A stretch of DNA of 64,000 bases. Source: Halocatena pleomorpha (lineage in GTDB: Archaea; Halobacteriota; Halobacteria; Halobacteriales; Haloarculaceae). Of this stretch, positions 22,993 through 25,331 are shown one piece after another. The first letter of the stretch is position 1; the number at the start of each line of letters is the position of its first letter. The DNA lies in assembly GCF_003862495.1 (NCBI RefSeq), contig NZ_RRCH01000003.1, positions 124,001-188,000 of the forward strand, read 5' to 3'. The notes below the pieces were generated by a model, which saw only the letters and a program-made list of their open reading frames with translations, ran no database searches and was not told the DNA's origin. The translations under genes were made by a program, and so were the position numbers.

Positions 22993-23453
22993 TGCTCTGC
23001 CATCCGTATCGCTTCGCGTCCGAACTGAACGACGTTCGGAGATAGGTTTTGTTCCTGAAGATCCGCCACGGTATACCACTCCCACGCGTTTGCGCCGACT
23101 TCATCAGGTCCGGGAGTGATGTCGCGGCTCGGAACCGTCGTGTAGTAGATGTTGTCGATGTGTTGGTGTCCAACGTCCCCGTCGTGAACGTTTATGTCGT
23201 AGAGCATCTGATGACGCGGACGCGGGAGTACTTGCCCATCTGGCGTATCAACCAGCTGTGCGTCGTTGAGTAGCGTCGGATCGAGTCCCGTCTCTTCGCG
23301 CACCTCCCTGAGACCTGCTTCGTGAGGGAGTTCATCTCGATCGACATGACCGCCGGGTGGGATTCGTTTGCCGACTTCCTGATGGTTGTGCAGCGCGGTC
23401 GCGCCGTCGTTAACGATGTAGACAGTCGCTGTGAAATGACGGGTCGTCTCCAT
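22989..23453 (-). CDS. Nudix hydrolase
   Basis: A 154-residue Nudix protein. The Nudix box G-x5-E-x7-R-E-V-x-E-E-x-G-L fits at residues 35-57 exactly. It hydrolyses a nucleoside-diphosphate-linked compound; substrate unknown. The histidine-rich middle (H-D-G-D-V-G-H-Q-H-I-D-N) might bind metal. It is convergent with the acyl-CoA dehydrogenase. Its stop codon lies in the tip of the solo IS right end. Confidence 0.9.
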   Translation of the reverse strand: METTRHFTATVYIVNDGATALHNHQEVGKRIPPGGHVDRDELPHEAGLREVREETGLDPTLLNDAQLVDTPDGQVLPRPRHQMLYDINVHDGDVGHQHIDNIYYTTVPSRDITPGPDEVGANAWEWYTVADLQEQNLSPNVVQFGREAIRMAEH

Positions 23454-23773
23454 ACTCTGGTTAGCTGCGTATCAGCATTTGTATCTTATCACTTTGATGT
23501 TATGGAGATATGGCTGCCAAAAATAAGTTATTCTTTTGGATCAATAAATCGCTAAAAAGTCCATAGGTGCCACAGTTCGGTCCGCTCCGAGCCGCACGCA
23601 CCGTCGAACGAGTTGTTGGTATGACACGATATTGCTCATTGCATCAGTACCTTTATGTGTGATGGGGTAAGGAACGATAAACGAGAACGCCAGCACACCG
23701 CGGCCGCGCGTTCATGGAAACGCGCCGGGTGTTAGGACCACCCGACGCTGGGGTTCTCGCTAGAGGAAAACCC
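23454..23773. other. intergenic region, AT-rich in its first 100 bases
   Basis: About 320 bases between the Nudix gene and the small zinc gene. The first part (23460-23560) is AT-rich and should hold the Nudix promoter. The second part is GC-richer; an ATG at 23714 could extend the following gene by 20 residues. No further gene is supported. Confidence 0.35.
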
Positions 23774-23920
23774 ATGATTGGGAACGAAGCAGAGACATGT
23801 AACGGTGTCGAATCGTATCAGAAAACTAAACAGCGACAGCGGTGTCGGAACTGTGGTCGGCCGATTCGATCGCGGTACGCACATCAGGTCGGGTGCCCGC
23901 TGCTGGAGGGTCGTCGATGA
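23774..23920 (+). CDS. small zinc-finger protein
   Basis: 48 residues from the ATG at 23774 (68 if the ATG at 23714 is used). The knuckle C-R-N-C-G-R-P-I is followed by Y-A-H-Q-V-G-C-P, giving a CxxC...H...C zinc site. The stop TGA (23918-23920) runs straight into the left inverted repeat at 23920. It may belong to the same small-ORF module. No function is recognised. Confidence 0.5.
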   Translation: MIGNEAETCNGVESYQKTKQRQRCRNCGRPIRSRYAHQVGCPLLEGRR

Positions 23921-24032
23921 CCCACCTTTTTTCCGTTCGGATGGCCGGAGGCCACCCTTACGCAAAAAATCTGGACCAAAAAAAGCCGCTCACTTCGTTC
24001 GCGGGAACTGCGCTCGTGGGGGGAAGACGATG
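23920..24032. repeat. left arm of long imperfect inverted repeat
   Basis: The arm runs: acccacc, T6, ccgttcgg, a tggcc/ggcca hairpin, cttacgc, A6, tctggacc, A7, then a GC-rich tail reaching the start codon at 24030. The same order appears in reverse at 24660-24777. The T-tract, hairpin, A-tract layout is bendable and could terminate transcription both ways. Confidence 0.65.
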
Positions 24033-24191
24033 ACGCTGCCAGTGTTTCAGTTCTGGGATCGGCTGGGCGAGTCGGTAAACATCTCGACCCTCGACGATCG
24101 AGGCCGGATTTCGAAGGCTGAACTGTACTACGTGATGGACGTGGGAAACGGCGTCTGGTGTCGCCAGAAGCCGAAGGCTTCTGGCTGCTAA
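24030..24191 (+). CDS. small hypothetical protein within the inverted-repeat module
   Basis: 53 residues from ATG 24030. It starts with a hydrophobic F-Q-F-W-D-R and contains S-T-L-D-D-R-G-R-I-S-K-A-E-L-Y-Y, and looks like a short alpha/beta fold. Its last stop base begins a perfect 9-bp hairpin at 24191-24211. The frame is open further upstream but that part reads through the repeat, so 24030 is preferred. Function unknown. Confidence 0.4.
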   Translation: MTLPVFQFWDRLGESVNISTLDDRGRISKAELYYVMDVGNGVWCRQKPKASGC

Positions 24192-24211
24192 CCAGAATCT
24201 TCGATTCTGGT
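24191..24211. terminator. perfect 9-bp hairpin after a stop codon
   Basis: accagaatc and gattctggt pair over a 3-base loop (ttc). It starts at the last base of the stop codon of the preceding small gene. A U-run does not follow, so a terminator role is only a guess; it may also be an RNA-processing signal. Confidence 0.35.
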
Positions 24212-24297
24212 GATGTAAACCGTGTCGGAGCACGGGCTGTGCGCATGCCACCCAGATCGAGGAGATCTTAGCGACGGCCGGACTTGGCCGATCACAG

Positions 24298-24636
24298 GTG
24301 AACTACGACGACCTACCCGGCATTGCGAACATCACGCGGTATGAGGCGACGGGCGAGCTGGTCGCCACCGGCTGGTTCGACAATGGCGGCCGGGTGCGCT
24401 ACCATGAGCAGCGCGATGGGACCGTCGTCCAGTCGGTGTACACCCCTGAAAACGATCGAGAGCCAACCGAGGTGACCGAACAACCCGACGCGACGGGTGC
24501 CCCAGCCAGATTAGTAGAGATGCTGGCGGAGTACTGCCACTATCGCCAGCGCGGGGATCTCGATGGACTGCGGGCCTGTTACCCTGACGTGGCTCGTGTC
24601 GTGGACAAAGCTCCAGTCGTCCACGCAGACGACTAA
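24298..24636 (+). CDS. hypothetical protein within the inverted-repeat module
   Basis: 112 residues from GTG 24298, the first start codon in a frame open from 24212. The frame before the GTG reads plausibly (T-Q-I-E-E-I-L-A-T-A-G-L-G), so the gene may have lost its original start. The N-terminal half is beta-rich (R-Y-E-A-T-G-E-L-V-A-T-G-W), the C-terminal half helical with Y-C-H-Y. No known domain is recognised. It ends 24 bases before the right inverted repeat tail. Confidence 0.5.
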   Translation: MNYDDLPGIANITRYEATGELVATGWFDNGGRVRYHEQRDGTVVQSVYTPENDREPTEVTEQPDATGAPARLVEMLAEYCHYRQRGDLDGLRACYPDVARVVDKAPVVHADD

Positions 24637-24659
24637 AAACAACAGAGTCAGTGGAGGCG

Positions 24660-24777
24660 GAGGCGGTCGCGGTGCGGGGAAGACGCAGCACCGCGAGCGG
24701 CAGCGAGCGGCCTTTTTTGGTCCAGATTTTTTGCGTGAGGGTGAGCGAAGCTCACCCGAACGGAAAAAAGGTGGGTG
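24660..24777. repeat. right arm of long imperfect inverted repeat
   Basis: Reverse-complement partner of 23920-24032. A6 and T6 tracts at the same spacing surround a gtgagc/gctcac hairpin (24741-24755). The hairpin sequences differ between the arms, but each stays self-complementary, as expected when the structure matters. The arm ends at acccacc, 39 bases before the HAD gene. Confidence 0.65.
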
Positions 24778-24815
24778 ACCGGGAAACCTACTACCTGTGA
24801 GCACCGAGCGATAGT

Positions 24816-25331
24816 ATGACTGAGTACAACGCGGTTGTCTACGATCTCGATGGGACGCTCGTCGACCTCGCGGTCGACTGGGACGCCGTCGCGCAGGAAG
24901 GGGCCGAACTCCTCGAAGCCGAGGGCGTCACCGTCGATGGAACGGATCTGTGGGGGATGTTAGATCTCGCGGACGACATCGGCGTTCGTCCGTCCATCGA
25001 ACGCACTATCAGCAAACACGAGCGGCGCGGCGCAGAGCGTTCGACGCGACTCCCAACCGCCACGGAACTGCCCCGATCGGTTCCCGTTGCAGTCTGTTCG
25101 CTCAACTGTGAGGCGGCGTGTCGGCTGGCGCTCAAACACCACGACATCGCCACCCACGTTGAGACCGTGATCGGTCGGGACACGGTTACAACGCGGAAAC
25201 CGGATCCGGAACCGCTGCTCGCTGCCGTTCGGCAACTGGACAGAACGCCGGAAAAAACGCTGTTCGTCGGTGATTCACAACGAGACAAACTGACCGCAGA
25301 CCGGGCCGGAACGGCGTACAGATACGTATAG
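24816..25331 (+). CDS. HAD-superfamily hydrolase
   Basis: 171 residues. HAD motif I is D-L-D-G-T-L near residue 11, the motif III Lys and G-R-D-x-V-T-T-R-K-P-D-P-E-P-L follow, and motif IV is F-V-G-D-S-Q-R-D near residue 150. This is the phosphoglycolate-phosphatase-like group with a short cap, shorter than the usual 200-220 residues because the cap is reduced. It dephosphorylates a small metabolite that cannot be identified here. Confidence 0.88.
   Translation: MTEYNAVVYDLDGTLVDLAVDWDAVAQEGAELLEAEGVTVDGTDLWGMLDLADDIGVRPSIERTISKHERRGAERSTRLPTATELPRSVPVAVCSLNCEAACRLALKHHDIATHVETVIGRDTVTTRKPDPEPLLAAVRQLDRTPEKTLFVGDSQRDKLTADRAGTAYRYV

Follow-up and report, generated by a model that had tools for sequence, protein, structure and literature searches.

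The 64,000-nt stretch of Halocatena pleomorpha DNA analysed here (the window; contig NZ_RRCH01000003.1, positions 124,001–188,000) carries a damaged copy of an operon that belongs to a multicopy family, and in five of the genus's seven genomes the same unit recurs about 20–40 times each. We consider the best explanation to be an RNA-led family of zinc-protein operons, in which the leader RNA would act as a switch and one of its loops as an address, and we give this reading a probability of about 0.6. Few gene families in its genus are repeated as often as this unit, and the genus includes hypha- and spore-forming archaea with mostly unexplained lineage-specific genes (PMC10067837).

Anatomy of the unit in the window

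The anatomy was taken from alignments that included 93 leaders and more than 60 ORF pairs overlapping at ATGA. Aligned copies contain, in this order, a TATA-like promoter, a leader RNA, a zinc ORF, an ORF of 175–183 aa and a double-hairpin 3′ end whose first hairpin precedes T6; we regard this arrangement as very likely correct. All features of the window copy lie on the + strand. The promoter region CAGTACCTTTATGTG (23645–23659) was recognised from its sequence and the 93-copy alignment; its TATA-like TTTATG stands ∼25–30 nt ahead of the leader and is kept in other copies, and from this spacing we infer the transcription start of the unit. The leader RNA (23682–23773), defined by a covariance model, folds and covariation, comprises the P1 helix, hairpins and the region up to the start codon. 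Next comes the ORF of a small zinc-finger protein of 48 aa (CxxC...HxxGC, 23774–23920), whose stop overlaps the original ATG of the next gene. Across copies the leader is ∼85 nt and the zinc ORF 45–48 aa long; in over 60 of them the end of the zinc ORF shares ATGA or GTGA with the start of the next ORF.

The next gene, of 183 codons, is present in two parts, both identified by tblastn to intact copies: MTLPVFQFWDRLGESVN...WC (24030–24160), whose frame stops at 24191, and KPCRSTGCAHATQIEEIL...VVHADD (24217–24636). Comparison of copies showed that they are separated by a double-hairpin insert of net 55 nt with stops between its hairpins (CCAGAAGCCGAAGGCTTCTGG-CTGCTAA-CCAGAATCTTCGATTCTGG-TGATG, 24161–24216). 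The gene is undamaged elsewhere in the genome (L031, L038), and in the window copy normal function is expected for the leader and the zinc protein only. The initial annotation had described a small-ORF module at 23920–24777 with a small zinc gene abutting its left arm and two small ORFs inside. The zinc gene (23774–23920) is indeed there and so are both frames, but the latter are halves of the single 183-codon gene split by the insert, and the unit starts further upstream, at about 23645. The suggestion that this might be a self-insulated gene module fits a unit equipped with a promoter, a leader and a double-hairpin terminator of its own.

The insert is found at this very position in several copies of G000, the genome of the window, and of G005. 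In two G005 copies (L107 and L110) the insert hairpins differ in sequence and keep their self-complementarity ([CC..GG]-CTGCTAA-[CC..GG]-TGATG). As the hairpins differ between the two species and are still self-complementary, the insert may be more than damage. An archaeal bulge-helix-bulge intron was considered for it, and a consistent bulge-helix-bulge was not seen by eye.

A structured leader RNA shared across the haloarchaeal order

In the window, the 5′ strand of P1 (CGAGAACGCCAGC, 23682–23694) pairs with 23747–23759, and hairpin P4 (GGGTG-TTAGGAC-CACCC, 23727–23743) has a nearly invariant stem, with 99.8% of cells paired. The leader covariance model (R1) was built from 23 leaders, and the window leader, which is one of these source sequences, matches it with 85 bits (E 7e-24). 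The covariation set consisted of 85 homologues from other genera and from a deep branch of the genus. In this set 95% of cells were paired, 14 of the 19 pairs had two-sided changes, and cells with two-sided changes numbered 198 compared to 64 in shuffles, while slid structures were at most 51% paired. This alignment, being fitted to the model, leans towards the structure; since the shuffled and slid controls nevertheless fall short, we argue that the structure is real, and the fold is almost certainly correct.

Most mRNAs of haloarchaea lack a leader, and only a few structured leaders are known from archaea. Despite this, the leader RNA was found in 89 of 293 genomes and 35 of 87 genera of the haloarchaeal order, often in at least 13 copies per genome (13–37 in the ten genomes looked at closely), and, as a weaker match, in at least one halovirus. 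When 393 genomes sampled from the phylum were searched, every leader match fell within this same order. Rfam 15 gave no match at E ≤ 1 in window positions 23300–25000, and in 17 further leader loci only a tRNA matched. A literature search, which covered articles apart from their supplements, found no description of the leader or the unit; by these searches the leader RNA and the operon are undescribed.

CxxC or SWIM-type motifs were present in the ORFs after 60 of 85 leaders, within the short stretch read, compared to 0 of 45 for reversed upstream sequence as control; for several of the remaining 25 leaders the zinc ORF was clipped or overlooked by the scan. Plasmids also contain the leader. 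In Haladaptatus plasmids there were 112 leader places in 20 records, mostly annotated as SWIM zinc finger family protein, and Natrialbaceae plasmids hold copies that are mostly unannotated. At eight loci with Natrialbaceae-type leaders (L265, L267, L268, L271, L272, L281, L391 and L400) the leader is followed by an unannotated basic peptide of 33–50 aa (MITFILPRYKRLARQ.., MIGYLLRGLKHPVRQ..), and 3′ of this peptide lies either a zinc ORF or one that is weakly similar to HalOD1. At L283 the reading frame of a SWIM ORF carries on into part of a DDE transposase (PF01609).

The match in halovirus HJTV-4 (E 6e-4) lies just ahead of gp35, and by eye its architecture is alike. This leader-like RNA (L340:1367–1437) has its own 6-nt loop, CGCCAA, and is directly 5′ of gp35, which encodes a viral small protein. 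Three matches of the bare hairpin pattern in viral contigs, without a zinc gene or P1 context, looked like chance and were set aside.

A probable switch at the start codon

The 3′ strand of P1 can pair with the P1 5′ strand or, alternatively, with bases just before the start codon. In the window the alternative anti-P1 hairpin (23747–23773) pairs GGGTT (23751–23755) with AACCC (23769–23773), directly abutting the ATG. Among 117 leaders, the complementarity of P1 and that of anti-P1 each exceeded 300 of 300 reshuffled mates. In addition, the motif beside the ATG varies together with P1, being AACCC, AAGCC, AGACC, ACAACC or ACAGCC according to the group. The anti-P1 stem is only 4–7 bp long and is weak in some copies. 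Because the strand that closes P1 also pairs before the start codon, a translational switch is suggested, and we hold this to be the probable role of the leader. With P1 formed, the start codon would be open; with the P1 3′ strand paired to the bases just before the ATG, it would be closed. Which state is ON is our guess from start-codon access.

T-box riboswitches are folded mRNA leaders that occur in many copies per genome and control expression by mutually exclusive helices. The leader described here resembles them in its copy number, in its mutually exclusive helices and in a variable short loop that could identify each copy. In contrast to the T-box, it is archaeal, lacks the specifier/antiterminator anatomy and appears to switch at the start codon rather than at a terminator; the Rfam T-box model had no match in window positions 23300–25000 or in the 17 further leader loci.

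The hypervariable loop of P4

P4 is almost invariant apart from its loop of 6–7 nt, of which there were 77 distinct versions in 88 units (TTAGGAC in the window copy, 23732–23738). We compared 19 presumed orthologue pairs, assigned approximately from flank matches. Loop identity in these pairs was 0.635, compared to 0.87–0.93 for the neighbouring segments and 0.44 for random loop pairs, and the loop was unchanged in only 3 of the 19. Near-identical leaders with different loops were found in L115/L167, L156/L166 and L157/L170. The first of these pairs comes from two species and has wholly different loops, TCCATAG in G004 (C1:1694962, L115) and GTAGGA in G001 (C1:1097711, L167). The loop thus escapes the homogenisation that affects the rest of the unit. 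Loop positions follow a Y-NNN-R pattern, and 16 loop words were common to the genus and other families, compared to 3.4 or 5.2 expected under two null models, each of which attained 16 in 0 of 300 trials. Since turnover is fast and yet the vocabulary is shared, the loop is fast-changing but constrained.

A search for a loop partner in cis, 1.5 kb upstream to 2.5 kb downstream, gave 20 cases compared to 24 expected, and no excess of loop pairing was seen inside the leader. The loop was also considered as a mimic or complement of tRNA anticodons. The excess over column-shuffled loops was only ∼2 s.d., and position 34 of the mimic was most often A, a base that is not known to be used there in archaeal tRNAs. 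Loops kissing each other were likewise rejected: reverse-complement closure exceeded column shuffles (4/300) but not clearly the Markov null (22/300).

We tentatively suggest that the loop may be a copy-specific address recognised in trans, an idea to which we give somewhat less than an even chance. A partner in trans, either RNA or protein, would read this address and so allow separate control of each copy, and the zinc and SWIM-like products are predicted to be regulators that bind nucleic acids, perhaps with the leader itself as a target. A further step, which we regard as doubtful, is that haloarchaea possess multicopy switch RNAs with a per-copy address of 6–7 nt in a code common to all haloarchaea, diversified by a dedicated process or by strong selection while the rest is homogenised. 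If so, dozens of near-identical zinc-protein operons would be separately controlled in one cell, perhaps as hyphae differentiate or when the cell is in conflict with viruses or plasmids. That the loop changes fast yet keeps to common words suggests a recognition code, which lends itself to direct testing.

The arms are copies of a dispersed double-hairpin repeat

The initial annotation rested on two arms, described as imperfect inverted repeats that share the order T6, hairpin, A6, A6/A7 and GC-rich tail and have differing but self-complementary hairpins. All of this was borne out. Positions 23915–23994 and 24702–24781 form an ungapped inverted repeat of 80 nt with 84% complementarity, the strongest in the 64-kb window for partners within 3 kb (the runner-up has 35 nt at 71%), and both arms have the proposed order, with the tail itself a hairpin. 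Among 44 right arms the T6...A6 hairpin has 25 distinct best stems that keep self-complementarity, with a mean of 7.3 bp compared to 4.9 bp for shuffles.

The right arm (24660–24777) is the double-hairpin 3′ end of the unit, with a GC-rich hairpin and a terminator-like T6 followed by the T6-hairpin-A6 element. The left arm (23922–24029) is an inserted copy of the dispersed repeat; ATGAC stands on both sides of it (23917–23921 and 24030–24034), and an arm copy of about 95–150 bp is found exactly at the ATGA junction in nine listed copies, including the window. Most unit copies have the right arm only. As the left arm is absent from most copies and present at the ATGA junction in few, it evidently represents a later, second insertion, and the right arm the ancestral 3′ end.

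With a single arm as query, 59 matches were obtained in the 3.65-Mb genome. Many are inward-facing pairs ∼0.7–1.0 kb apart, others are solitary, and several contigs end in an arm. The check proposed initially, whether arms bracket similar small ORFs, came out positive in so far as paired arms usually enclose one 183-codon ORF, and negative for the solitary arms and for L035:1887–2655 (G000 C23:90386–91154), where an arm pair surrounds an unrelated small gene for a membrane-protein-like product of 84 aa (MIPHVRDSIMAFDRNVGGIDRIVRGVLG...). Thus, arm pairs are not bound to a single cargo. By comparison of copies, the arms are a dispersed palindromic repeat that normally terminates a larger operon, and not the ends of the unit. 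In G003, double hairpins like the window insert also break up arms (e.g. L082, L086 and L088).

Homogenised copies at rearranged sites

Genes at sites shared by G003 and G005 are 0.67–0.71 identical, whereas paralogues within G003 are 0.87–0.89 identical and those of G005 group in a single clade. As paralogues are closer than same-site genes, the copies within a species are homogenised by concerted evolution. Many unit sites are common to several species, which indicates that mobility is old or rare; the majority of G003 units have one or both flanks in common with G005 units. By flank comparison, the window unit and L082 of G003 occupy the same site. In three G003/G005 site pairs (L087/L126, L088/L138 and L091/L131) the unit is inverted, and other units have swapped flanks. 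Such exchange is expected of recombination between dispersed repeats, which explains much of the site variation.

The initial annotation had proposed a check for empty sites in close relatives. Sites without the unit do exist, but their flanks are rearranged and the site comparisons gave no case of clean excision. In G001 and G004 the window's neighbour genes (HAD-like and NUDIX-like by reading) are 47 bp apart with no unit between them, and the NUDIX-like gene is in the opposite orientation. In G005 the two genes lie next to different units. Unit L148 of G004 is missing at the matching place in G001.

Alternative explanations

The possibility raised initially, a non-autonomous mobile unit bounded by the arms, corresponds to a MITE-like element carrying passenger ORFs. 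Inward-facing arm pairs recur, ATGAC is duplicated around the left arm and some sites differ in presence or absence; the arms also resemble MITE and REP-REPIN palindromes in being dispersed, imperfect and ∼110 bp long, one with a flanking 5-bp duplication. A MITE, however, has terminal inverted repeats on all copies and a target duplication around the whole element, and here the duplication flanks the left arm alone. Most copies are without a left arm and the conserved anatomy reaches upstream of it, most arms are the 3′ end of one operon family, others are solitary or surround unrelated genes (L035), and sites are often common to several species. We therefore find this explanation quite improbable. 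Neither Pfam nor NCBIfam matched a transposase among the unit's proteins, in keeping with the earlier statement that the module is not an IS.

Alternatively, the whole unit could be a slow transposable element or an integrated gene family that spreads chiefly through homologous recombination, in which case the RNA would serve mobility instead of regulation. The high copy number, units missing at some sites, flipped orientation, exchanged flanks and wide haloarchaeal spread, plasmids included, agree with this. We still judge it unlikely, given that transposase, integrase and a consistent whole-unit target duplication are absent, that flanks are so widely shared between G003 and G005 units and that the start-codon pairing points to expression control. 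A slightly better chance, though still well short of even, is given to a cellular riboswitch or protein-binding leader whose loop is merely unconstrained and drifting: loops often tolerate sequence change and a pairing partner was not found in cis, but this loop changes faster than other single-stranded leader segments (0.635 vs 0.87), and its words recur across families above both null models. An RNA-led operon family with a leader switch and a loop address remains our preferred reading.

The encoded proteins

The 183-aa family, whose invariant residues include WC-x2-C-x4-C-x-H, is present in all seven genomes of the genus (22, 23, 1, 20, 24, 41 and 1 matches, counting fragments) and in 0 of 52 other haloarchaea searched; there was one weak partial match, on a Natrinema plasmid. 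With the alignment as query, the only named records with the family were those of Actinarchaeum halophilum YIM 93972 and strains YIM A00010 and YIM A00013, haloarchaea that form hyphae and spores (PMC10067837). This group has 61 unique genes, mostly of unknown function, and the main text of the article does not mention the 183-aa family (PMC10067837).

No family in Pfam, NCBIfam or PHROG matched the 183-aa protein, a sequence search of the PDB gave no match, and its AlphaFold model (pLDDT 69) had no PDB fold match at E ≤ 0.001. In other genera the proteins encoded behind this leader belong to the SWIM type or weakly resemble it, and the Haladaptatus copies carry the SWIM annotation (PF04434). 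The 183-aa protein, in contrast, has no Pfam match to this finger, has C-x2-C-x4-C-x-H instead of C-x-C...C-x-H, and aligned to the SWIM core weakly with hhalign (P 0.08, exactly 0.079). The unit's proteins matched no anti-phage defence model in PADLOC; a single weak PDC-S62 match was to a Haladaptatus SWIM protein.

Two known haloarchaeal systems are comparable. According to their titles and abstracts, articles on the C(P)XCG zinc-finger proteins of Haloferax volcanii deal with proteins of <70 aa that are numerous in one genome (PMC11241148, PMC10716476, PMC6562870). These resemble the zinc ORFs as small zinc-finger proteins with many members per haloarchaeal genome; the same titles and abstracts do not describe this leader or an ATGA operon with the 183-aa protein. 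The brz-brb operon of Halobacterium salinarum combines a zinc-finger small protein and a small basic protein in one regulatory operon (PMC2253796, PMC3184054). Compared by gene arrangement, it resembles the basic peptide and zinc ORF after Natrialbaceae leaders, but brz-brb is a single regulatory locus for bop.

G002, with a single 183-aa gene, has a complete unit at C1:177395–177474 (L263) with a leader, a 69-aa zinc ORF and a 181-aa ORF, and its state is possibly ancestral. A second leader in the same genome (C1:2900205–2900287, L251) lies ahead of a different small zinc ORF.
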